Under the pieces are notes generated by a model. It was given only the letters and a program-made list of their open reading frames with translations. It was not told where the DNA came from and searched no databases. A DNA stretch of 64,000 bases from a virus. This document shows, piece by piece, positions 7,799 to 60,783 of the stretch (positions are counted from its first letter, which is position 1; each line of letters opens with the position of its first letter). The DNA lies in the IMG/VR virus record IMGVR_UViG_3300032214_001346, positions 1 to 64,000 of that record; one strand, given 5' to 3'. Position numbers and translations under genes: made by a program.

Positions 7799-9405
7799 CG
7801 CAAATCCACTTACCCGAAGACATTGGGGATACCCAATCTAAGGCTGGGGAAAAGCCAATTACAGAATCCTATCCCTTTGTTTTAGCTGAGGATGCGCTTA
7901 TACAATATGCCGGAGTTTTTCCTCCAATCTCCCCAGCAGAACTACTAAACCCAATCTATAAACCAACATCGGAAACAACGACAGATACATTTTCTTTAAA
8001 TAGGAAAGTCAAATTTTCCATCCTATTTAGAAACGTCTCTAATTACGACATTGAGCCTAACCAGTGGGGATGTCAAACTGGAGATGTAAGCGGACAATTG
8101 GGTACAGGTACAGTCAGCGTTACATGGTCTTATAGAGTCAATACCCGTGCTAGTTACACTTCCAATACAGAAGTAAAGTTTTTTCCCAGTCAAAGCGCGA
8201 TTGAACTTAAAAACTACCCAAATAGCGACGCTGGGATTACTCAACAATCTATCCTTTTTAGCACTCGCTATTTTACCGCTAGTGCTAATCCAATCATTCT
8301 GACAATGGCGGTAAAAGCATCATTATCAGATTCACCAAACTCAGTAAAAACCTGGGGTCTTTATTCTGTAAGTAGTGGCTATTTTTTCAGAATGAAAGGC
8401 AACGGATCTGCCAATAATTTTGTAGTAGGATATCGTTATTCTTTAGGTGGCACTCCTGTAGATATAGAAATCCCCCGCAGTTCTTTCAACGGCGACAAGC
8501 TGGACGGGCTAGGGAATAGCGTCCACGTCCAAACTTTTACAAACGTGGCGATGTTTGGGATTGAAGTTGGCACAGCAGGGATAGGGGCAAGATTCTGGGC
8601 TTATGTTGACGTTGGTAATAGTGCCAGATGGGTTTTGGTTCATAGTTTGTTGAATGATTCCGACTCTTCTCAAGACAGAATAACAGACGAAGAAGGCTGG
8701 CCTATTTGCTTCGAGAATATTAACTATGGCATATCTAGCACCACTCAAACATTAGCTAAATTTGGAGTATCAGTAACATCTATTGGTTCACCAACTGGAA
8801 CAACCGATGTTAATTTAGTGTCGGGAAACATAACAGCATCTTTATCTAAATCTCCCCAACCTATAGTGGGAATTAGAGCCAAAGACTTTATCAATTCTAA
8901 GAAGAACTCTAGTAATATTTTACCGATCACCTTAAGTGCGATCGCATCTTCAGGGACGTGGAGAATTGTATTAATTAAGAATCCCACAAAACCCACTAAT
9001 CCTGTATTGACATTTAGTTCAGCGAATTCTTTATCTGCAATTCAATTCTGTAATCAAAGCTTTTCAATTCAGTCAGGTACAATTTTAGGATCTTATTTAT
9101 TAGCAGGAAATAAACCTTTAAGTATTAACTTAGCTGATTTATTTGCACTAAACAAATCTTTCTTAACTACACAATACACAAATGACTTTAGCCCAACTGG
9201 CGACTTTGGACAGCAATTTGTACTAAATGCTGATGAGATTTGGGTATGCGTAGCTGAAGCTAGTATCAGCACAGCTTATTTAAAAGATATAGTTTGGGCA
9301 TCAACTTTAACTACTAATGCAACTCCTAGCTACGGTGATTCTAGTGCCAGTAGCCTTGATTTTAATGCCAGTATTTATGTAACTTTATCTGCACAGGAGG
9401 TGTAA
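7795..9405 (+). CDS. Fibre-cassette A tail fibre protein 2
   Basis: 536 aa from the ATG at 7795, which overlaps the upstream TGA (ATGA) and aligns with the start of the paralogue at 14686 (MTQIHLPEDIG / MEEIQKIYFPESFG); an in-frame GTG at 7783 is less likely. Shared blocks include 'NGDKLDGLGNSVHVQTFTN'/'FKDKLDGTGVSGLNVDFS' and 'FGIEVGTAGIGARFWAYV'/'FAIELGSFDGSGARFYIYA'. Beta-rich structural protein; no enzyme motif. Confidence 0.6.
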   Translation: MTQIHLPEDIGDTQSKAGEKPITESYPFVLAEDALIQYAGVFPPISPAELLNPIYKPTSETTTDTFSLNRKVKFSILFRNVSNYDIEPNQWGCQTGDVSGQLGTGTVSVTWSYRVNTRASYTSNTEVKFFPSQSAIELKNYPNSDAGITQQSILFSTRYFTASANPIILTMAVKASLSDSPNSVKTWGLYSVSSGYFFRMKGNGSANNFVVGYRYSLGGTPVDIEIPRSSFNGDKLDGLGNSVHVQTFTNVAMFGIEVGTAGIGARFWAYVDVGNSARWVLVHSLLNDSDSSQDRITDEEGWPICFENINYGISSTTQTLAKFGVSVTSIGSPTGTTDVNLVSGNITASLSKSPQPIVGIRAKDFINSKKNSSNILPITLSAIASSGTWRIVLIKNPTKPTNPVLTFSSANSLSAIQFCNQSFSIQSGTILGSYLLAGNKPLSINLADLFALNKSFLTTQYTNDFSPTGDFGQQFVLNADEIWVCVAEASISTAYLKDIVWASTLTTNATPSYGDSSASSLDFNASIYVTLSAQEV

Positions 9406-9407
9406 AA

Positions 9408-10220
9408 ATGCCCAGTTCAATTACAGCTAATTTATCTAGTTTTGGAATGTCTTATTTAAGTATATGGCGAATTTGGGGTGGTAGTAATGGAACGGCCACT
9501 TTCACAGCAAGCGGAAATGTATTTACAACTACTGCTACTATCCCAATGTCAACAGGGGACTTAGTGTATCTAGCTCAATTTGGTTACCCTCAGGCAACGA
9601 CAACAAGATACATGATTAAGTTGACCGCCAACACATTCTCCTTAGCAACTACACAAGTTTTAGCCAACGCTGGTACTGCTTCGGCTCTCCCTTATGTAGT
9701 TGCAGACACAGGCATCAGCAACGTGCCTCTTAATGGCAAGCAAGGTACTTTTGTCTCTCCCTCAGGAATTATACCTAGTGGAGTCACAAATTTTTTAATG
9801 TCTTCGTCTAGGTCTGCTCAATCTTTTGCCGTTACCGATAATGTTCAAATAGATTTTTCCGTATCTGTACCAATACAAACATTTAACCCGTTTAGTGCAT
9901 ATACTTTTTATAATTATGTCTTTGGGCTAAGAACAGATGCAGGTAATTATTCTTGCATCTGTTCTGATGATGGAGCTTTTTGGGTTGGCGATACTATCAC
10001 AGGATTTTCCGCTGATCAGCAAAAAACTTTAGCTACAACAACTTTTAGAATCACTTTACAAAATAGGCAAATAAGTATAGCAAACAGGCGCACTAATTCA
10101 ACTTATACAACACTGTTTACATCTTCCGTACTTTCTTTAAATTTATCAAATTTACGCTTTTTTACTAATCTCACTTTAGACGGACAAGCTTTTACCAACT
10201 GTACTATTACTTACTTATGA
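9408..10220 (+). CDS. Fibre-cassette A tail fibre protein 3
   Basis: 270 aa with a strong ribosome binding site (GGAGGT, 7 nt before ATG). Ser/Thr/Ala-rich; the segment 'NGTATFTASGNVFTTTATIPMSTGDLVYLAQFG' resembles small repeated beta modules in other fibres. It occupies the same cassette position as the 670-aa LRR protein at 17115, but I see no clear sequence similarity. Function beyond virion structure unknown. Confidence 0.5.
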   Translation: MPSSITANLSSFGMSYLSIWRIWGGSNGTATFTASGNVFTTTATIPMSTGDLVYLAQFGYPQATTTRYMIKLTANTFSLATTQVLANAGTASALPYVVADTGISNVPLNGKQGTFVSPSGIIPSGVTNFLMSSSRSAQSFAVTDNVQIDFSVSVPIQTFNPFSAYTFYNYVFGLRTDAGNYSCICSDDGAFWVGDTITGFSADQQKTLATTTFRITLQNRQISIANRRTNSTYTTLFTSSVLSLNLSNLRFFTNLTLDGQAFTNCTITYL

Positions 10221-10714
10221 TTACTCTTTTTATTCTGGAATCAATCACTGTTTTTAGCCCTGATTACACTATTCAATTAATAGGAAGTAATCAAACCAAT
10301 CAAGATAGATTATTCGCGGTTGACGGTGATTTAACAGCTTTTAAAACTGACTATCCCCAAGCCAAAGATTACTACGATGGCGACTGGTTTCTTAACTTTT
10401 ACCCTGACGCTGTTGGGGATACACCTCTAGAAAAATACTTAAACGCAATTAATGGAGTCACTATGTCTAGTCCGCCTAAATGGAATAATATTCTCCCCGC
10501 TTTGGCTAGTAGTTCTTTGTTTCTTAAAATACTAACTACTCAAAATCCTAATGCTTTTTCAGCATTACAGACGGTCGTTCAATATAGAAACATAGAATTA
10601 TTCCAAGTCTTAGCCAAAGCCACGCTAGAAGCTATTCCTGGAGGTTTAACAGAAGCGGAATCTCAAGAGTTGAATACAATATTGATTCAGAATAATTTTC
10701 CATTGATTAAATAA
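10217..10714 (+). CDS. Fibre-cassette A terminal protein, possible chaperone
   Basis: 165 aa, start overlaps the upstream stop (ATGA). Unlike its neighbours it is not Thr/Ser-rich: the N-terminal 60 residues are mixed alpha/beta and the rest ('LPALASSSLFLKILTTQNPNAF' onward) is predicted helical. Small helical proteins after a fibre gene are often tail-fibre assembly chaperones, so that is a possible role. I recognise no family. Confidence 0.45.
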   Translation: MITLFILESITVFSPDYTIQLIGSNQTNQDRLFAVDGDLTAFKTDYPQAKDYYDGDWFLNFYPDAVGDTPLEKYLNAINGVTMSSPPKWNNILPALASSSLFLKILTTQNPNAFSALQTVVQYRNIELFQVLAKATLEAIPGGLTEAESQELNTILIQNNFPLIK

Positions 10715-24257: not shown

Positions 24258-24285
24258 AATACCCACTTTGATACAAGTGGGTATT
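24258..24285 (-). terminator. Terminator after dnaB
   Basis: AATACCCACTT-tgatac-AAGTGGGTATT, perfect 11-bp arms, followed on the minus strand by a T-rich run. Ends the initiator-dnaB operon (stop at 24313). Confidence 0.85.
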
Positions 24286-25684: not shown

Positions 25685-26845
25685 TTATGCAGATGGTAAA
25701 TGCTTAGACCAATCAAAACGCGGTTGATTAATCAATGCGTAGTCGAGATACGCTCGATTCCAACTACGTTTGCTACAAAAGTCTTCTAAGCTTTTGCAAT
25801 TGATGTATTGCTCCCATACGGTTTGATGCTGGATTGGCTGCCAGGTTAATACAGCGTCAGGAAGGGGGACTAAAGCCATTTCTTTTTTAGTTTTGATGGA
25901 ATATTCCTTCCATCTGATTTCTAAGTTGTTATGGTCTTTTTTGAGGTGGCTGTAGACATTAGCCCGTGACTCATGGATATCAGTTCCAAATTTGCCCGCC
26001 CACTCCAAAGCGAACCATTGCCAAAAGTCATTATCCAGTTGGCCGTTTTTCTTCCATGGACCATCTGGTAGCCATTCCCATGCTATATCTTTTGCGCTTT
26101 TACGCGGTTTTCCAAATGGTTCAACCACATTTGCCTTGTCAAGACGCGCCGGGGCGGCGGGCGCAACTTTGTCCAATGAGAGATTTATCTGTTTACCCGA
26201 AATTCCTTCCTTTAAATCAGGAATAGCAGATATCTGTTCTACTCCATCTTGTTTTAAATCCTCTTTAGCGGGAGGAAGTCCGCTAGATACTTCTTCTTTA
26301 GATATTTCTTTCTTAAATACTTCTTGGAATAAGTATTTATTATGTGGCAGGTTTTCCGTAGCCGGATTTTCCGTAGCCGGATTTTCCGTAGCCGGATTTT
26401 CCGTAGCCGGATTTTCCGTAGCTGGATTTTCCGTAGCCGGATTTTCCGTAGCCGGATTTTCCGTAGCCGGATTTTCCGTAGCCGGAAAACCTGATTCCGG
26501 TTTTACCCTTGCTGTACGGGCTTTCTGAGTTTTTTTGCTTGGTTCGCTTGATGGTATTTCCCGAATAACAGATTTCCATCCTGCCATTCTTCCGTTTACT
26601 CGTGCTTGCTCACGAGTTAAATACCCAAACTTTTCTAATTCTTTTAATGCTGAACAAACAGATGTTTTTCCGTCAGATTCAGACTGGTCAGACAAATGTT
26701 CGGTATTAATCTCCCACCCATCAGGGTAGGAAAGCAATAAGTGATGTAGCCCACGCGCTTTGAAGCTCAACCGCGTATCTCTAATAGCCGCGTTGGCTAT
26801 TACTGTGTAATCTTTTGAATGCTGCACTCTTATTGTTTCCCCCAT
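25685..26845 (-). CDS. Replication initiator/helicase-loader-like protein with NPATE repeats
   Basis: 386 aa from ATG 26845, supported by GGAGG six nt upstream. Residues 1-95 form a winged-helix domain typical of phage replication initiators ('AIRDTRLSFKARGLHHLLL', 'SVCSALKELEKFGYLTREQ'). Residues about 121-165 are tandem NPATE repeats. The C-terminal 110 residues ('WEWLPDGPWKKNGQLDNDFW') probably contact the helicase. Directly precedes dnaB (22 nt). The layout (DNA-binding domain, repeats, interaction domain, helicase next) resembles lambda O and P. Confidence 0.75.
   Translation of the reverse strand: MGETIRVQHSKDYTVIANAAIRDTRLSFKARGLHHLLLSYPDGWEINTEHLSDQSESDGKTSVCSALKELEKFGYLTREQARVNGRMAGWKSVIREIPSSEPSKKTQKARTARVKPESGFPATENPATENPATENPATENPATENPATENPATENPATENPATENLPHNKYLFQEVFKKEISKEEVSSGLPPAKEDLKQDGVEQISAIPDLKEGISGKQINLSLDKVAPAAPARLDKANVVEPFGKPRKSAKDIAWEWLPDGPWKKNGQLDNDFWQWFALEWAGKFGTDIHESRANVYSHLKKDHNNLEIRWKEYSIKTKKEMALVPLPDAVLTWQPIQHQTVWEQYINCKSLEDFCSKRSWNRAYLDYALINQPRFDWSKHLPSA
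26352..26486. repeat. Nine 15-bp iterons inside the initiator gene (candidate origin)
   Basis: Nine tandem 15-bp units TTTTCCGTAGCCGGA, one with a C-to-T change (GCTGGA). They encode NPATE on the minus strand. By analogy with the lambda origin (iterons within the O gene) they may be the initiator binding site. A decayed copy of the region is at 56.9 kb. Confidence 0.6.
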
Positions 26846-26983
26846 CACACACCTCCATGGGCGTGCAACAGCGCACTTGTCTTATTGACAAAAATTGAAA
26901 AATGATTCATAGTTAAATTGCTCCTAAGAGATTTAAGAAATGGTAGGGGCTGTCCCTCGACTGTGTTCAGCAGTACGAGGGCT

Positions 26984-30419: not shown

Positions 30420-30486
30420 GACGCGGGAGGGTGTGATGGACTTAGTAAAAAGAAGACAGGTATTGATCAATTTGATCTCCCGCGTC
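30420..30486 (+). promoter_or_regulatory. Long-range inverted repeat over a ribosome binding site
   Basis: GACGCGGGAG (30420-30429) and CTCCCGCGTC (30477-30486) are perfect complements 47 nt apart. The left arm contains most of the SD (GGGAGG 30425-30430) of the gene starting at 30436, and the right arm lies inside its coding sequence, so pairing would hide the SD. Confidence 0.6.
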
Positions 30487-31530
30487 GGGAGAGGACAACA
30501 AAACATCTACCGCTGGGTAGATGAGTTAATCAGTATTGACGCTCAGATTGAGCAACAGGAACAGGTACAAGAGGAGACAAAAAAAGTGACAACAGAATTA
30601 AAATTAGCGGTAGGGATGCAAATAGTTCACCCTCGCTGGGGCGAAGGAATTATATTTGCCGTAATGGGCAAAATGGTTTCAGTGGATTTCCCAGGAATGG
30701 GAAGAAAGCTGGTATCTGATACTTCAGATTTAAAAGCTGTTGACAAACAATCTAAACAGAACAAGCCACAACAACAGTCGCAAGTACAATCACAAGCACC
30801 AATTAAGTCACAACCCAAGATTGATACAAGTATAGAAGTCGCTAAACAGCAACTTCTAGCACTTGGTGTACTGGAAGAGTCTATTTCAATCCAGGACGGA
30901 CTTGTAGTGGTCCTAGGTGCTGATTGTAAACAGCATGAAGGAAAGTTTTTCTATTGGGACAAAACAGTGTTCCCTACTGAACACGATAAGGGTTATAAAA
31001 AAGATGCAGGCAATGTCCGCATCAATCCAGCACAGATTAAAAACTCCCAGAGAAAAGCCTGGGAAAACTATAAAATTGAGCAGGGCAAAAAACCTGCTCA
31101 ACCATTTGAAAAGTGGTTAAGTGGGAGGTTAACTAACCTCCCCAAACTAGTTATTAATAAAATTGATGCTGAACCTGCATCAATTTGGATCAAAGAAGAT
31201 ATAAACAAATACGTTCTGTTTATTAACAGAACGTCACGCCACGTTCAAGAACTATGTGCTGCTATTCGGCATGAAATGAATGGCACGGATAGTCAAGATG
31301 GGAAGTTTATGGTCTTCCTGGACAACCAGGAAGAAATTACCCTCGCCTCAAAAGGGAGCGAAGGATGGAAATTGAGTACTCATGTCACCCTAATGAAAAA
31401 AGAGGGTGACACCAAGAAGGAGTTTTACGTAAAAGATGAGGTTTTTGCACCCATCATGGAAAAGTTAAATGTAGCTGCTGAAAAATGCGGTGATTCTTTT
31501 AAGATGCCATTTGGGCTTCGCGTAATGTAA
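30436..31530 (+). CDS. Protein with PcrA/UvrD-tudor-like domain
   Basis: 364 aa from ATG 30436 (GGGAGG five nt upstream; GTG 30433 is the alternative). Residues about 58-93 ('VGMQIVHPRWGEGIIFAV', 'VSVDFPGMGRKLV') closely resemble the C-terminal tudor-like domain of PcrA/UvrD helicases, which contacts RNA polymerase. A Gln-rich linker (100-130) and an unrecognised C-terminal domain (135-364) follow. No helicase motifs. It may bind RNA polymerase or DNA; the function is unknown. Confidence 0.55.
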   Translation: MDLVKRRQVLINLISRVGRGQQNIYRWVDELISIDAQIEQQEQVQEETKKVTTELKLAVGMQIVHPRWGEGIIFAVMGKMVSVDFPGMGRKLVSDTSDLKAVDKQSKQNKPQQQSQVQSQAPIKSQPKIDTSIEVAKQQLLALGVLEESISIQDGLVVVLGADCKQHEGKFFYWDKTVFPTEHDKGYKKDAGNVRINPAQIKNSQRKAWENYKIEQGKKPAQPFEKWLSGRLTNLPKLVINKIDAEPASIWIKEDINKYVLFINRTSRHVQELCAAIRHEMNGTDSQDGKFMVFLDNQEEITLASKGSEGWKLSTHVTLMKKEGDTKKEFYVKDEVFAPIMEKLNVAAEKCGDSFKMPFGLRVM

Positions 31531-31552: not shown

Positions 31553-31602
31553 TTGCGACCTAAGCACGTCGGTAAACTGCTGTTGTAAATAAGGAGCAAA
31601 AA
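31553..31602 (+). repeat. Shared 5' leader, copy 1
   Basis: The leader 'TTGCGACCTAAGCACGTC' and 'AAACTGCTGTTGTAAAT' before the telomere resolvase is repeated with few changes before the gene at 32709, and the first codons (METTM) match too. The duplication implies shared control of the two genes. Confidence 0.7.
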
Positions 31603-32646
31603 ATGGAAACAACAATGATAGTAGCGGAAGTAGATGATGAGTATCAGGGTTGTCAAGGAAAAATCATTTTCATGGCAAATACTTACTATGCAAAATTAAA
31701 AAACTACACTTTGGAGCTACAAGTACAAAAAGTTTTGTTTCTACCTAGCTGGGTTGAGATTGTCACACCGTTCAAAGCTGAAATTGAAAATGAGTTTGGC
31801 ACTAATGCTAATTCGGTATGCAATGCCGTTAGCTCGGTTTTAAAAGGTATAGAAAGACGTGTGAACGCAGAAGCGAATCAATTCCCAGATGGTATGCTAA
31901 TTCAGCAATATCAACTTTTTTGCAAGTCTGTTAAATCCTTGATGAGCGAGTATAGTAAATCTAAGCGTGTAGAAGGACAAAAGAAATTAAATTTGAGACA
32001 GCAAAATACAATTGATGTTGAGGTCGCTTCGTTGCTTTTGTGGTCAAAAGCTAAGTTGCAAAACTTACCACGACTAGGTAAAGACTGGACTGAAGTAGCG
32101 ATCGCGCTGATGACCCTTACAGGTCGAAGGCAGTCTGAAATTATGTGTAGTGGTAGCTTTGAATACCTTGATAATAACTGGGTTATGTTTAGTGGACAAC
32201 TCAAAAAACATAGTTTAGAAAGTGCCGAAAGCTACAAAATTCCCATTTTAATGGGCGCTGCTAGAGAAGTAGTTGAAGGACTTAGGTGGCTGTCAGACTC
32301 GCGTAAGCGAGTACAGATTATAGATGGTGATGTTAGTGCTGCTGCTAAAAAGGCTCATGATATGTACAGCAGTTATCTAAGCGCGAGCGTCAAGGATGTG
32401 TTAGGTGCTTATGTAAAGACTGATGATAACTGGGTTCACGAAGGAAAAGATCGGAAAAAATGTCTTCTCTTGAGACAAATATACGGTCAAGTCGTCTATC
32501 CTTTGTTTTTTAGGGATAGTAGGCAAAAAATAAACCAAGCGTTAAATCAAATTATGGGACATAACAATAGCTTAGAAGCGGGTAGGAGCAGTGTCACCTG
32601 TTATGACGCAGATGTCGTAGTGATTGACATTGATAAATGTAAATAG
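31603..32646 (+). CDS. Telomere resolvase (protelomerase) of the hairpin-telomere type
   Basis: 347 aa with SD AAGGAG. 'ALMTLTGRRQSEIMCSGSF', 'WVMFSGQLKKHS' and 'YKIPIL' match the TelK/TelN/TelA signature (TGRRxxEI...FxGQxK...YxIPxL). Candidate catalytic residues R176, K201, R291, H320 and Y334; the R-to-K spacing of 25 equals that recalled for TelK (R275, K300). It would cut a palindromic site and reseal the ends as hairpins, giving a linear plasmid prophage. Shorter than TelN (about 630 aa) and TelA (442 aa). No integrase is seen in the window. Confidence 0.8.
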   Translation: METTMIVAEVDDEYQGCQGKIIFMANTYYAKLKNYTLELQVQKVLFLPSWVEIVTPFKAEIENEFGTNANSVCNAVSSVLKGIERRVNAEANQFPDGMLIQQYQLFCKSVKSLMSEYSKSKRVEGQKKLNLRQQNTIDVEVASLLLWSKAKLQNLPRLGKDWTEVAIALMTLTGRRQSEIMCSGSFEYLDNNWVMFSGQLKKHSLESAESYKIPILMGAAREVVEGLRWLSDSRKRVQIIDGDVSAAAKKAHDMYSSYLSASVKDVLGAYVKTDDNWVHEGKDRKKCLLLRQIYGQVVYPLFFRDSRQKINQALNQIMGHNNSLEAGRSSVTCYDADVVVIDIDKCK

Positions 32647-32652
32647 TTAGCT

Positions 32653-32708
32653 TTGCGACTTAAGTACGTCATTAAACTGCTGTTGTAAATACTGAAGAGC
32701 AAAATAAA
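32653..32708 (+). repeat. Shared 5' leader, copy 2
   Basis: 'TTGCGACTTAAGTACGTC' and 'AAACTGCTGTTGTAAAT' repeat the leader of the telomere resolvase gene, 1100 bp downstream, again followed by an ATGGAAACAACAATGA start. Confidence 0.7.
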
Positions 32709-33023
32709 ATGGAAACAACAATGACAGTAGATGGTTACAACTATACTTTAGTTGAATACGCTTACACAACAAACCAAGGAGACTTGGTTGGTTATTCCAA
32801 GTCCCATGACATTAAATTTGCTGGGGAAATTAAAGAAATACCTGATGATTGTGAGTGGCTGACACCACTCACTCCAGTTAAACGCGCCCCTCTGGGCGAC
32901 ACCTTCGTAATGGAAGATGGGGTGGATACTTATTCCAGACATTTCTTAGAGGAACAATTAAAAGAAGAAGAAAGTCTCAAAAGGCGTAGGATAAAGCCGG
33001 GCTGGCAGCCTTTTACCTTTTAG
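32709..33023 (+). CDS. Hypothetical 104-aa protein
   Basis: Starts METTMTVDGYNYTLVEYAYT; contains 'IPDDCEWLTPLTPVKRAPLG' and a charged C-terminus. No family recognised. Its leader and first five residues copy those of the telomere resolvase gene, so the two probably share regulation. Confidence 0.6.
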   Translation: METTMTVDGYNYTLVEYAYTTNQGDLVGYSKSHDIKFAGEIKEIPDDCEWLTPLTPVKRAPLGDTFVMEDGVDTYSRHFLEEQLKEEESLKRRRIKPGWQPFTF

Positions 33024-49294: not shown

Positions 49295-49438
49295 GTAAAA
49301 GTCCTTACAAAATTCCTGAAAACGTTGTAAGTGTGGACATTCCACAAAAAATGTTATTATTATGTTTCATAATTATTTAAGATTTTAAAGAAATATTTAT
49401 CTTTTGGTGGTGCTTTTATTATCATTAAAAACAACAAA

Positions 49439-49455
49439 ACCGCTACGTGAGCGGT
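49439..49455 (-). terminator. Terminator
   Basis: ACCGCT-acgtg-AGCGGT; on the minus strand it runs into TTTTGTTGTTTTT. Ends the gene whose stop is at 49505. Confidence 0.75.
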
Positions 49456-49504
49456 AATGTTGCGGCAGTCCTACGACGACCCCTAGGCTGTGCCTATTTG
49501 GATT

Positions 49505-50668
49505 TTAGTACATACTTGATTGGGTTTCATTGTTTACAAGTGAAGCGCAAATATCGTACATCTCAGCCCATACGTAATCATCTTTTGCAATTGACGACAA
49601 AGGCTGTCCTGCGTATTTTACTTGCATAGATACGTGAAAATATCTAGTTAACATTTTTTTGATCAAGCTTATCTTGGTTTTCTCGCTTACTTGCAATCTA
49701 TAATCTCCTGTTTCAGTTTTTTCTACAAAAACTCTAAAACCAGACATTATCGGAAAAACCAAGGATTGCTGAGTTATCACACAGGTAAGTATTTCATGGT
49801 TAGGCAACTTGGTATATTTCCTAGCGTCGTTTCCACTTTTTGTAAACCTTGTTCCTGTAGCACTAGAATGATGCTGTTCCTCTAGTCTTTTGAATATTTT
49901 AGACTGAAGATCTATAGCGTCGTGAACTAACGAAAAAAGTTTTTTTGGTATTAAGTCTCGATGTACAGAATTAGAAGCCTGTATTGAAAGTTTTGGATGC
50001 TTTTTTTTGTTGGTATTGGATGGAGAATAACTTGGATCTAGTGCCCAAATAAGGCTGTAAATTCTGGCAATTGTACAGCACCCATCAACATTTGTTGTTT
50101 GCACTCCAAATTGCCCTTCATGATAAATAATTCTGTACCTTTCAAGTTCTGGTTTTATCCAGTCATAGTCACCGCTATAATTTGCTAAACTCATTTTTGA
50201 GACGGCTTTACTGGTATTTAGTGCGATCGCCTTTTCTTTTAATTCAATTTCATCAAAACCTGAATAGATTATGATGTTTACAAAAACTTGAGAAATATCT
50301 ATCTCTTTAAAATTAGCAGCCATGCAAAAAGCTAATAGCCGATGACCGCCATCTAACAATCCATCGGAATCTTTAAACGTCAATCTAATCAAACTTGCAG
50401 TAATTTTTGAGCAATCAGCAGCAAGATGAAGCGGCGAACTGATAACCGAAACGCCCTTTTTCAAGGATTCAATTATTGATTCGGTAACAGAGTTTTTTAT
50501 CGGTCTTCTTACGTTGGCAGTTAGTGGAATTTTCCACAAAAGATGAGATTCGTTTTTACTGTTAGCTTCAACTAAATCCTTAAGAGTAGTTGATACGTGA
50601 TACTCTTTTCCCTGTTGAACTGGAAATTCATTTAACGACCGGAACTTTAAGTTAATAACGTGTGGCAT
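49505..50668 (-). CDS. AIPR/DGQHR-like protein
   Basis: 387 aa. 'DGLLDGGHRLLAFCMAANFK' (around residues 103-122) and 'ELKEKAIALNTSKAVSKMSL' follow the pattern of AIPR and DndB-type proteins (xDGqHR/NGgQT ... in.l.tN..q.v). AIPR proteins belong to abortive-infection phage resistance; DndB regulates DNA phosphorothioation. In a phage it could protect the prophage against other phages. The assignment rests on motifs only. Confidence 0.55.
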   Translation of the reverse strand: MPHVINLKFRSLNEFPVQQGKEYHVSTTLKDLVEANSKNESHLLWKIPLTANVRRPIKNSVTESIIESLKKGVSVISSPLHLAADCSKITASLIRLTFKDSDGLLDGGHRLLAFCMAANFKEIDISQVFVNIIIYSGFDEIELKEKAIALNTSKAVSKMSLANYSGDYDWIKPELERYRIIYHEGQFGVQTTNVDGCCTIARIYSLIWALDPSYSPSNTNKKKHPKLSIQASNSVHRDLIPKKLFSLVHDAIDLQSKIFKRLEEQHHSSATGTRFTKSGNDARKYTKLPNHEILTCVITQQSLVFPIMSGFRVFVEKTETGDYRLQVSEKTKISLIKKMLTRYFHVSMQVKYAGQPLSSIAKDDYVWAEMYDICASLVNNETQSSMY

Positions 50669-50691
50669 AATTGAATTATAGGTTAGTTGGT

Positions 50692-50723
50692 TTCACATCA
50701 ATAAAATATTTTATTGATGTGAA
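50692..50723. promoter_or_regulatory. 32-bp perfect palindrome (candidate telomere-resolution site or operator)
   Basis: Half-site TTCACATCAATAAAAT is followed immediately by its exact complement, no spacer. It lies 24 bp upstream of the AIPR-like gene's ATG, and part of it could be that gene's -35. Long spacerless palindromes are the substrates of telomere resolvases such as that at 31603, but also typical of operators. Confidence 0.6.
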
Positions 50724-50783
50724 TTTACTTATAATAATATCATAAATTAATTTATTTGTTAAAAAAATAAACGGTTTTAAAAG

Positions 50784-50809
50784 TACCCACTAATACGCTT
50801 TAGTGGGTA
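50784..50809. terminator. Recurrent terminator family, copy 1
   Basis: TACCCACTAA-tacgct-TTAGTGGGTA. The same hairpin recurs at 52620, 54843 and 57759. Confidence 0.85.
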
Positions 50810-52619: not shown

Positions 52620-52645
52620 TACCCACTAAAGCGTATTAGTGGGTA
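52620..52645. terminator. Recurrent terminator family, copy 2
   Basis: TACCCACTAA-agcgta-TTAGTGGGTA between the convergent methyltransferase and Rha genes. Confidence 0.85.
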
Positions 52646-52651
52646 TGGGAA

Positions 52652-54842: not shown

Positions 54843-54868
54843 TACCCACTAAAGCGTATTAGTGGGTA
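54843..54868. terminator. Recurrent terminator family, copy 3
   Basis: TACCCACTAA-agcgta-TTAGTGGGTA between convergent genes 54518 (+) and 54880 (-). Confidence 0.85.
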
Positions 54869-56898: not shown

Positions 56899-57218
56899 AG
56901 GTTTTCCAGCTACGGAAAAACCACAAGCGGAAAAACCAGCTACGGAAAAACCACAAGCGGAAAATCCGGCTACGGAAAATCCGGCTACGGAAAATCTGCT
57001 ATATAATAAATATCTATTCCAATAAGTATTTAATTAAAGAATTATCTAAAGAGGAAGTATCTAAGCGGAATGCCCCTCATAAGAGGATTTAAGAAAAGAA
57101 CTAACACAACAGATATCTGTTATTCCTGGCTTAAAGACAAATATTTTTAGAGAACAGATAAATCACTCATTGGATCAGGTTATGCCCGCCCGCCGCGCTT
57201 AAAAATGACAAGAAGCTA
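56899..57218 (+). pseudogene. Decayed fragment of a replication-initiator gene
   Basis: In one frame it reads GFPATEKPQAEKPATEKPQAE, ...NPATENPATENLLYNKYLFQ, then frameshifts and stops, and 'ELTQQISVIPGLK', 'FREQINHSLDQVMPA'. This parallels the 25685 initiator's repeat, 'NLPHNKYLFQEVF', 'VEQISAIPDLK' and 'KQINLSLDKVAPA'. The N- and C-terminal domains are missing. A leftover of a second, related replicon. Confidence 0.7.
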
Positions 57219-57731: not shown

Positions 57732-57758
57732 AGCGTACTTATTGAATAAATAAAAAAA

Positions 57759-57784
57759 TACCCACTAAAGCGTGTTAGTGGGTA
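57759..57784. terminator. Recurrent terminator family, copy 4
   Basis: TACCCACTAA-agcgtg-TTAGTGGGTA, just beyond the stop of the leftward gene at 57808. Confidence 0.85.
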
Positions 57785-57807
57785 TCAGGTTGAAACCTAC
57801 AATGCAA

Positions 57808-58011: not shown

Positions 58012-58223
58012 TGTTTTGTCTCCTTGTCTCCTGATTTATAAATATAGTCTATCTTATTTTTTGTTTACTGTCAAGTGGTTTTAGAAAATATTTGTTTCGC
58101 TTGCTTGCTTGAATTCTTGCAATTAACCCAGTCCCTCAAGTCCGGTTTCACCACGCTGAAACACAATTTAATACTTTAACTTACACCTTGCAATTAACTC
58201 AGTCCCTCAAGGTCGATTTCACC

Positions 58224-58259
58224 TTTACCCCTATTATAGCATTATTTCTTATTAGGAAA
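58224..58259 (-). repeat. 36-bp direct repeat, copy 1
   Basis: Identical to 58612-58647. On the minus strand it holds TGCTATAAT (-10 core 58233-58238) with TTGTTT 18 bp upstream, so it could transcribe the two left-hand repeats. Spacer-sized: it immediately follows the repeat at 58187-58223. Confidence 0.75.
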
Positions 58260-58353
58260 CAATTGCTCAAGTACCCGTCCTACAGTAGTTCCTAACCACT
58301 GACCACCGCGTTTTGAGGGTATGTTTTTATTGTTTAAATAATCTGCGATCTAG

Positions 58354-58593
58354 CTAAAAATCAACTCTACCATCACTGTTTAATTGGAATGTTTCGGCGT
58401 AGTCCTTGGCGATGAAACTGCTTATTAAGTCTACAGTGGTTACTTCGTTCATGGTTTTGTCGTAATACTGAGCATAATCTGATATGGTTTTATAGGCCAC
58501 TATTAGGTTTATGGCACTAGCTTTTAGTTCCGGGTTGTTCCAATCTGTCTTGTTGATGAACGCCAATTCTTTGCTGATATCCATTAATTCCAT
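58354..58593 (-). CDS. 79-aa protein inserted in the CRISPR array
   Basis: MELMDISKELAFINKTDWNN, then 'AINLIVAYKTISDYAQYYDK' and an acidic C-terminus; helical, no family. It has its own extended -10 promoter (in the 36-bp repeat) and a leader hairpin AGGGGTA/TACCCCT. Insertion appears to have split a spacer or duplicated a 36-bp block. It could be a CRISPR accessory/inhibitor or simply a passenger. Confidence 0.6.
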   Translation of the reverse strand: MELMDISKELAFINKTDWNNPELKASAINLIVAYKTISDYAQYYDKTMNEVTTVDLISSFIAKDYAETFQLNSDGRVDF

Positions 58594-58611
58594 AGCTTTT
58601 AAGGGGTAGGT

Positions 58612-58647
58612 TTTACCCCTATTATAGCATTATTTCTTATTAGGAAA
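58612..58647 (-). repeat. 36-bp direct repeat, copy 2
   Basis: Same sequence as 58224-58259; one nt before the repeat at 58649. Serves as promoter of the 79-aa gene. Confidence 0.75.
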
Positions 58648-59019
58648 TCTTGCAATTAACCCAGTTTCCCAAGGTCGGCTTCACCAATTAAATAGCACCG
58701 GCACTAATGATGAGATAAGAGTCTTGCAATTAACCCAGTTCCCTAAGGTCGGTTTCACCTTCTGAATATTGAATCTTTGATAGAAGCTAACTTGCAATTA
58801 ACCCAGTTCCCTAAGGTCGGTTTCACCAACTCGATGTTTTTTATTCCTGATTTTGAATCAAATCTTGCAATTAACCCAGTTCCCTAAGGTCGGTTTCACC
58901 CAAACCGGGAGGGTTGATGGAATTTAGGTCGACACTTGCAATTAACCCAGTTCCCTAAGGTCGGTTTCACCTTTGAAGCTCAAAAAAAGAGATTAGAGTT
59001 GAATTTTCTTGCCTTGCAA

Positions 59020-60783
59020 TTAACCCAGTTCCCTAAGGTCGGTTTCACCTGCCGTATCCCAGATCGTAAGCTGTGTAAAGGTTTCATCCCCTGATTGCGC
59101 GGATCTCTTATTTTTCTTTGTTCCAGGTTTTTGAGTTTTCGCTGAATTAGCTGAAATGCTTATTGGGTAAGGTGCGCGGGTGCTTGGTAAATTGTCAAGG
59201 TTCGGATTGCTTACGGTGTCTACCTTTGAGGTTGTTTTCACGGCTTTAGAGGTTTTTACATCCCCCCTTCCGCGCTGAGTTCCCCTTTCGGGGTTTAATT
59301 GGGAGGAATATCCATCCTCCGGTGGTGCTTGCACACCTTCCTGGTGACATCCCGTATTGGAATCAGAGCCAGGCTTTCGGGTTTCCCCATGTTCCCACGC
59401 CCAAGCGCGGTACACTGCTGATAATTGTTTTTTGCCTTTGAGCAAGATGTTCTTAGCTGCATTAGAATCACGTCCTTCTGTGTGACCACATTCTGTACAG
59501 CGGTGAGTTCTTTGGCTCAATGCTTTCTTTATTTTAGCACCACATTTTGAACAGTCAACCGTAGTGAAATGAGCAGCAACTTTTACAAACTCTCTATCAG
59601 TATCTTTACACTTTGTTTCAATTTTACTGATTAAATCACCCAGTGCTGAATCAGCAAAACTTTTGTTTAACCCAGCTTTACGTTTTGCACCGTTTTGTTC
59701 ATAGCCATTGCCGTCCTCACGTTTCTTGGCTTTGGGCTTACGGTTCAGGTTTTGTATCTTTAAGTCTTCCATCACAATCCCAGAATACTCACGCACAACT
59801 TTAGTAGATAACTTATGGTTAAAAGCGTTACGGCTGCGGCGGATCTTTTCATGGTGTAAAGCTATTTTTTGATAGGTTTTCTTCTGATTACATCCTCCCT
59901 TTTGTTGCCTAGACGCTTTACGCTGTAACCGTCTTAGCTTTGCTTGTTGTTTCCTAAATAGCTTAGGCGGTTCTATTTCTCTCCCCTGATCTGTGGTGAT
60001 AATTGATAGTAAACCCGGATCAATTCCTACTGCTTTATCAGATTTTGGTAATGGGTCATTGGGGATATCAACGCATACATGAAGATAGTAACCTGATGGT
60101 TCTTTAACTATTCTGGCAGGACCCCATTCTTGCCAGTCATATCTATCAAATAATCCTTTAACTTTAATTTTACCAAGTTTAGGGAACTGGACATAGCCAT
60201 TATTTGAGCCGGGTATTTTTTCCGGTTTTAGTTCTTTGGATAAACCCCCAGCATTGAGATTAACAAGTGACTTGATTTTATCATTTCTCCCTTTGAATTT
60301 TGGCTTTCTACCGGGGTGTTTTGGGGTAACGTAAGCTTTCCATGATTTCTTTAAAGAATCAATTACCCCTGCCTTAAATTTAGTGGGAACATCTGCCATA
60401 AAGTCGGGAATATTGTCACTCCTATAAAATTCACATTGTCCATATTTATCAGGGTTTTCAATATTCAAATGTTGTCTAATTTCACAGTAAGGATGACCGC
60501 TTTTAGGTCTGATGACACCTGTACCGACTAAGCGGACTTTTTCCCACTTCTCAGTAGACTTACCTTTCTTGTCTTCAGTAACAACCTTTCGCCATTTCCA
60601 CTGCAAAACTACACCATCAGGAATAATGCGATCGCTTATTTCTTTCTCTCTATAATATTTCTGTCTTCCTGCTAGTTTGAGTGACAGCCCTGTATTCCAA
60701 ACCCACTTGAGTTTGTCTAGCCATTGATTAATCGTTTGTACCTGTGCAACCGTGGGGTCAAGTTTAAATTCAAAAGTTTTCAT
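59020..60783 (-). CDS. TnpB-like / type V-U-like CRISPR effector
   Basis: 587 aa. TnpB core 1-450: N-terminal 'MKTFEFKLDPTVAQVQTINQ', RuvC-I 'AVGIDPGLLSII' (D255), RuvC-II 'IVMEDLKIQNLN' (E339), zinc finger C411/C414/C429/C432 and RuvC-III 'GRDSNAAKNIL' (D439). All catalytic acids are intact. A low-complexity C-terminal tail (450-587) runs straight into the CRISPR array, the stop codon being inside its first repeat. No TnpA is adjacent. Type V-U effectors (V-U2 is recalled from cyanobacteria) are the closest idea; a plain IS605 TnpB is the alternative. Confidence 0.85.
   Translation of the reverse strand: MKTFEFKLDPTVAQVQTINQWLDKLKWVWNTGLSLKLAGRQKYYREKEISDRIIPDGVVLQWKWRKVVTEDKKGKSTEKWEKVRLVGTGVIRPKSGHPYCEIRQHLNIENPDKYGQCEFYRSDNIPDFMADVPTKFKAGVIDSLKKSWKAYVTPKHPGRKPKFKGRNDKIKSLVNLNAGGLSKELKPEKIPGSNNGYVQFPKLGKIKVKGLFDRYDWQEWGPARIVKEPSGYYLHVCVDIPNDPLPKSDKAVGIDPGLLSIITTDQGREIEPPKLFRKQQAKLRRLQRKASRQQKGGCNQKKTYQKIALHHEKIRRSRNAFNHKLSTKVVREYSGIVMEDLKIQNLNRKPKAKKREDGNGYEQNGAKRKAGLNKSFADSALGDLISKIETKCKDTDREFVKVAAHFTTVDCSKCGAKIKKALSQRTHRCTECGHTEGRDSNAAKNILLKGKKQLSAVYRAWAWEHGETRKPGSDSNTGCHQEGVQAPPEDGYSSQLNPERGTQRGRGDVKTSKAVKTTSKVDTVSNPNLDNLPSTRAPYPISISANSAKTQKPGTKKNKRSAQSGDETFTQLTIWDTAGETDLRELG
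59282..59320 (-). other. Stable hairpins inside the effector's 3' coding region
   Basis: On the minus strand, GGAGGA-tggatat-TCCTCC (59320-59302) and CCCC-GAAA-GGGG with a GNRA tetraloop (59293-59282). Structured 3' tnpB sequence is typical of omega RNA overlapping the gene, so this may be a scaffold RNA for the effector. Confidence 0.5.

Follow-up and report, generated by a model that had tools for sequence, protein, structure and literature searches.

The telomere resolvase-family gene analyzed here is very probably an accessory gene of one lineage in a family of ~97-kb cyanophages. It lies in a window of 64 kb, the whole stretch of DNA analyzed, which is the first part of a 93,412-bp IMG/VR virus record. 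Our reading is that a plasmid-type resolvase was captured by the phage, is possibly impaired in rejoining, and may act in trans on plasmid telomeres. We assign this whole reading a probability of about 0.55, because the trans mechanism stated in it lowers it from the much firmer standing of the accessory origin alone. Most likely, the phage itself does not form a linear prophage with hairpin ends.

The gene and the codons of its active site are located as follows.

31603..32646, plus strand: telomere resolvase-family gene, 347 aa (PF16684, E=4e-24; TelA, TelK, and ResT as the top structural matches)
32128..32130, plus strand: codon of Arg176 (catalytic Arg I), invariant in the alignments
32203-32205, plus strand: codon of Lys201
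32464..32466, plus strand: codon of Leu288 (third catalytic position), Leu in both phage copies
32473..32475, plus strand: codon of Arg291 (catalytic Arg II), from the alignments
32560-32562, plus strand: codon of His320
32602..32604, plus strand: codon of Tyr334, the presumed nucleophile, which lines up with the nucleophilic residue in every relative

The ORF is made up of a core-binding and a catalytic domain, and the ~100-130 aa N-terminal extension seen in the plasmid relatives is missing. The PF16684 match spans residues 160-323, with 85.5 bits (E=4.3e-24, Pfam) against a curated cut-off of 27 bits. An earlier note had identified the protein as a telomere resolvase from the motifs TGRRxxEI, FSGQLK, and YKIPIL, all of which were found in the ORF, the first as TGRRQSEI, with R176, K201, R291, H320, and Y334 at the positions it gave. 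Its claim of a TelK-like spacing from R to K was borne out, since the alignment to TelK (2v6e, E=1.1e-5) was gap-free through the R-to-K segment. When the AlphaFold2 model, whose mean pLDDT of only 67.8 indicates moderate confidence, was searched with Foldseek, all eight PDB matches at E<=0.001 were TelA, TelK, or ResT, and lambda Int came next in the ranking (E=0.025). The best structural matches were thus not ordinary tyrosine recombinases, and the identification stands. A genome scan with P0001 as the sole query gave no matches, and the sequences in the mixed-clade alignment A1 had diverged too far to serve in it. A second copy of the gene, with 88% identity, was found on the contig G001, indicating that the locus is not an assembly chimera. 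Between these two copies, the only phage-borne ones known, dN was 0.061 and dS was 0.465 (dN/dS ~0.13), and the ORF was intact in both; the gene is under purifying selection.

The catalytic residues R176, K201, R291, and Y334, plus H320, are kept in the phage enzyme. However, both phage copies have a leucine at position 288, three residues before R291, which the earlier note had missed. Among the remaining aligned resolvases, this position is almost always H, K, R, or Q (the Fischerella p6 group is misaligned here), and it is His in the closest plasmid enzymes. A functional His, Lys, or Tyr three residues before Arg II is a typical, if less strictly conserved, resolvase feature, and Leu288 departs from it. 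The equivalents of Leu288 are Tyr363 in TelA (PMC3558466), Lys in TelK, and His305 in Flp. In the step-arrest recombinase Flp(H305L), where the His of the third catalytic position is likewise replaced by Leu, the cleaved intermediate accumulates (PMC4381057; PMC11381328), presumably reflecting a stronger defect in joining than in cleavage. Flp(H305L) is a mutant made in the laboratory, from another family of tyrosine recombinases, and serves as a lead to the possible behavior of the phage enzyme, which, by this analogy, may be impaired in rejoining. Cre His289 variants retain activity (PMC4381057), so Leu288 may also be harmless or compensated. The N-terminal ~100 residues of TelA are dispensable for hairpin formation in vitro (PMC3558466); therefore, the N-terminal loss need not inactivate the phage resolvase.

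HIP1 sites (GCGATCGC) occur 51 times in the 93.4-kb contig, compared with 0.44 expected, and this abundance supports the cyanobacterial host proposed earlier. The genes that frame the genome and its replication are listed below.

380-2206: J-like tail protein, at the contig start
24313..25716, minus strand: DnaB-like replicative helicase (phrog_19, E=7e-100)
25685..26848, minus strand: O/DnaD-like replication initiation protein (phrog_4707, E=7e-32)
67153-68652: terminase
near 71.6-74.8 kb: head genes
79787-93304: ORF of 4,505 aa, read as the tape measure, at the contig end

In close relatives, the two contig ends are joined by about 3.4 kb, from the tape measure to a gpI-like gene, indicating that the contig is permuted and covers nearly all of a ~97-kb genome. 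Possible traces of a temperate ancestry are the Rha, BRO, and antirepressor-like genes. The absence of an integrase noticed earlier held over the whole 93,412-bp record (no PF00589), although it carries no weight, because 21 relatives without the resolvase are also without an integrase. ParA/ParB families were not found among the phage ORFs scanned.

Other features of the phage and its relatives were recorded alongside. A CRISPR array and an adjoining effector gene are present.

58116-59049: CRISPR array with eight 37-bp repeats in two blocks
59020-60783, minus strand: Cas12u2 (C2c8, type V-U2) effector (PADLOC, E=1e-166)

The related phages G315 and G312 have 28 and 19 CRISPR repeats, respectively, and one spacer matches the tail region of relatives exactly over 17 nt. 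The relatives G315 (L199/L200) and G307 (L197/L198) have, near the CRISPR region, an additional TnpB/Cas12-like gene that is more distantly related (26% identity). Stem-loops of the family ATACCCACT...AGTGGGTAT lie beside gene ends at 50784-50809, 52620-52646, 54843-54868, and 57754-57785, and some of them coincide with breaks in the homology between phages, as would be seen at recombination points. A replication-gene segment carrying 15-bp repeats (TTTTCCGTAGCCGGA) is present twice, at 26150-26514 and 56905-57207; the two copies have diverged and are inverted relative to each other, and the latter is located in a non-coding region.

The accessory origin is read from the surroundings of the gene, which are as follows.

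30433..31530, plus strand: upstream flanking gene, 365 aa, without Pfam or PHROG match, with homologues in G001 and L156
31553..31624, plus strand: leader copy 1, comprising the upstream region, the start codon, and the first resolvase codons (METTMIV), 85% identical to 32653-32730
32653..32730, plus strand: leader copy 2, that of the resident small gene, from the leader comparison
32709..33023, plus strand: resident small gene, 104 aa (8274-8585 in L156 and 3547-3864 in L157), which adjoins the homologue of the 30433 gene in relatives without the resolvase

PF16684 was detected in none of the 21 relative contigs (9-118 kb, up to 118.6 kb), and neither was the PF00589 integrase. Most of these contigs are fragments, so that single absences of the resolvase are weak; eight of them, however, span the resolvase locus and lack the gene. 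In L156, the site is empty and both flanking genes adjoin directly. A leader of the 31553..31624 type also stands before the small gene in both L156 and L157, and in L157 the resident small gene opens with the same seven codons (METTMIV) as the resolvase. The insert is therefore flanked by two copies of one phage leader. The simplest history, which is well supported, is that an N-terminally cut resolvase was captured behind a duplicated phage leader, and the direction of capture was probably from a plasmid lineage to the phage.

If the phage used the enzyme on its own ends, as the earlier note had proposed in calling it a linear, hairpin-ended phage-plasmid, a tel site would be expected beside the gene. 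Our ungapped-palindrome scan recovered the tel adjoining the resolvase gene in N15 (26/28), phiARM81ld (40/40), VP58.5 (40/40), and Valp1 (35/39), and a tel beside the resolvase gene was also found in several IMG/VR phages. With the same scan, no telomere palindrome above the shuffled-sequence range was found near the resolvase gene in either the focal phage or G001. The plasmid-type telomere described below was likewise missing, with no CATCGATG in the 93.4-kb phage contig and no plasmid telomere half-site at <=1 mismatch. The sole significant perfect palindrome in the focal phage, and the gene beside it, are the following.

50691..50722, strandless: perfect 32-bp palindrome, significant and conserved in G001, a probable operator of gene 49505-50668
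49505..50668, minus strand: gene of 387 aa that forms a mobile cassette (about 49417-50809) together with the palindrome and has a 93% identical homologue next to the palindrome in G300

This palindrome was rejected as a telomere because it is bound to its gene, with which it is jointly lost in G307/G315, and occurs in G300 as well, a contig on which no resolvase was detected; it is probably an operator-like part of the gene cassette. Two other candidates were terminator-like: the palindrome at 24271 (TACCCACT...AGTGGGTA type) directly follows the DnaB stop, with similar elements after other genes, and that at 64824 is a stem-loop ~12 bp past a stop codon. A telomere hidden in the ~3.4-kb contig gap is unlikely, since the sequence that closes it in relatives contains no palindrome. 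At 93306-93412 of the record (L003 13306-13412), a 25-bp perfect tandem repeat, GGTAGGGGTCAACAGATACCAGAAC, runs for 4.3 copies directly after the tape-measure stop and is missing at the equivalent place in L126; its resemblance to the subtelomeric GGGGT repeats of Fischerella was too weak to use.

In a tree of 54 resolvase sequences, some on long branches, the two phage copies were sister (100/100) to the resolvases of Fischerella p8, Nostoc linckia, Tolypothrix, and G208, a further cyanobacterial genome, and stood apart from the N15 and Vibrio-phage enzymes. The sister enzymes of Fischerella NIES-4106 plasmid8, the Nostoc linckia z4 contig, and Tolypothrix PCC 7712 unnamed12 share 32-42% identity with the phage enzyme over the core-binding and catalytic domains. 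Unlike the phage enzyme, they have both His at position 288 and the N-terminal extension, and their replicons carry CATC-GATG (hyphen at the center of symmetry) or terminal inverted repeats near the gene, neither of which is present in the phage. Three replicons of the sister clade (Fischerella, Tolypothrix, and Pelatocladus) contain perfect inverted repeats centered on CATC-GATG, with the half-site GATGA(C/G)(C/T)GGGGTG. Fischerella plasmid8 has the 40-bp palindrome TTACGTACACCCCGGTCATC-GATGACCGGGGTGTACGTAA at both its start and end, in the Tolypothrix plasmid, perfect inverted arms of 3.7 kb flank ...CACCCCACTCATC-GATGAGTGGGGTG..., and a 14,262-bp contig of Pelatocladus is centered at ...CACCCCGGTCATC-GATGACCGGGGTG.... 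The Fischerella and Tolypothrix plasmids were both deposited as circular. Considering that three separate records share one dyad next to related resolvases, these repeats are probable hairpin telomeres that were read through by the assembler.

PF16684 was carried by 52 of 293 genomes drawn from one cyanobacterial order. A second resolvase clade goes with another telomere, ATTCCTTGTTCTCT-AGAGAACAAGGAAT, which, in this form or a closely similar one, was found in several genomes at the ends of contigs, one of them a linear contig of 29.7 kb that looks complete, and also on a terminase-bearing contig. In the latter (L095, G220:C19), a perfect telomere palindrome of 122 bp lies at a distance of ~0.7-1 kb from small and large terminase genes at 7959-10499; the palindrome also occurs on resolvase-bearing plasmid contigs of another species. 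L095 is a probable hairpin-ended cyanobacterial phage element; there may thus be such an element, although the focal phage is not one. Telomere palindromes or long terminal inverted repeats were also observed in L005, L007, L043, L100, L110, L221, and L224, which are cyanobacterial plasmid records or contigs, some deposited as circular, and are probably hairpin-ended linear plasmids. In the freely accessible literature searched, cyanobacterial telomere resolvases received passing mention only, and no terminal hairpins were found in a linear element of Anabaena variabilis (PMC4148955).

From these comparisons, we propose the following course of events. One cyanophage lineage would have taken the resolvase from the lineage of hairpin-ended cyanobacterial linear plasmids; the N-terminal part would have been lost and the rest put under a duplicated phage leader with its upstream region, RBS, and start codon. 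The phage enzyme may then bind the palindromic GATGAnnGGGGTG-type telomeres of host linear plasmids and probably cuts them through Tyr334. With Leu288 in the active site, rejoining may be poor, and the telomere junctions of replicating plasmids would thus be blocked or broken, which may help the phage against co-resident plasmids or their defense genes. Family membership, accessory status, the empty site, the sister relation to plasmid enzymes, the missing tel in the contig, Leu288, and purifying selection are shown by the data; the direction of capture, target, trans action, poor ligation, and benefit are inferred. Taken as a claim of its own, that a ligation-impaired resolvase is a weapon attacking or blocking the hairpin telomere junctions of competing host linear plasmids is conceivable but doubtful. 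Weak points of the whole reading are the ~3.4-kb gap, which could hide a tel site, though relatives span it without one, the small number of phage copies (two), and the fragmentary state of several relative contigs.

That the phage lysogenizes as a linear plasmid and forms hairpin ends at its own tel is improbable. The intact R/K/R/H/Y residues and the purifying selection would suit it, as would the missing integrase, the hints of temperate ancestry, and the possibility that a tel might lie in the unseen gap, at which the contig ends in 25-bp tandem repeats. The N15-like phage-plasmids N15, phiARM81ld, VP58.5, and Valp1 likewise encode a telomere resolvase. In them, however, a tel immediately precedes the gene, and ParA/ParB-type genes and a large replication protein are present; none of these was found in the focal phage, itself without an integrase. 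TelA of Agrobacterium and TelK/TelN of phiKO2 and N15, with which the phage enzyme has the catalytic-domain family and fold in common (about 17-18% identity to TelA/TelK in structural alignment, with the R-K spacing of TelK), each act on a palindrome of their own replicon. A scan that finds tel in controls gave none near the gene in either phage, ParA/ParB were not found among the ORFs scanned, 21 relatives without integrases lack the resolvase, an empty site exists, the gap is bridged in relatives without a palindrome, and replication genes are of the O/DnaD-like and DnaB type. The earlier proposal of a hairpin-ended phage-plasmid is thus not upheld.

Alternatively, the enzyme might bind DNA as a cap, or inhibit the Mre11-Rad50 (SbcCD) of the host, and in this way protect replicating phage DNA, which we consider unlikely. 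TelN offers a precedent independent of resolution activity, inhibiting Mre11-Rad50 of E. coli without catalysis and without the TelN C-terminal domains (PMC12624138), and Leu288 would be tolerated if catalysis were unneeded. However, TelN protection in vivo requires sequence-specific binding of telomere DNA (PMC12624138), no such site was seen in the phage, and the nucleophile and other catalytic residues are all kept. It is rather unlikely that a working enzyme resolves host linear-plasmid telomeres normally, to the benefit of a co-propagating linear plasmid or satellite. The sister relationship to plasmid enzymes, the tolerance of Cre for loss of the equivalent His, and the purifying selection agree with such mutualism, whereas Leu at position 288 occurs in no other aligned resolvase and an associated satellite was not found. 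A recently acquired, selectively neutral passenger gene would be consistent with the absence from relatives and with the two known copies, but dN/dS ~0.13 over a dS of 0.47 and an intact ORF in both make it very improbable.

Telomere resolvases are known for finishing the ends of their own replicon. If the captured-resolvase reading is true, an accessory cargo resolvase with an altered active site, in a phage without a visible telomere, would represent a new use of the enzyme. Candidate telomere sequences are now on hand for linear plasmids of cyanobacteria, of which two had been deposited as circular. Given these candidates and the presence of PF16684 in the 52 genomes, the end maintenance of cyanobacterial linear elements is now directly testable.
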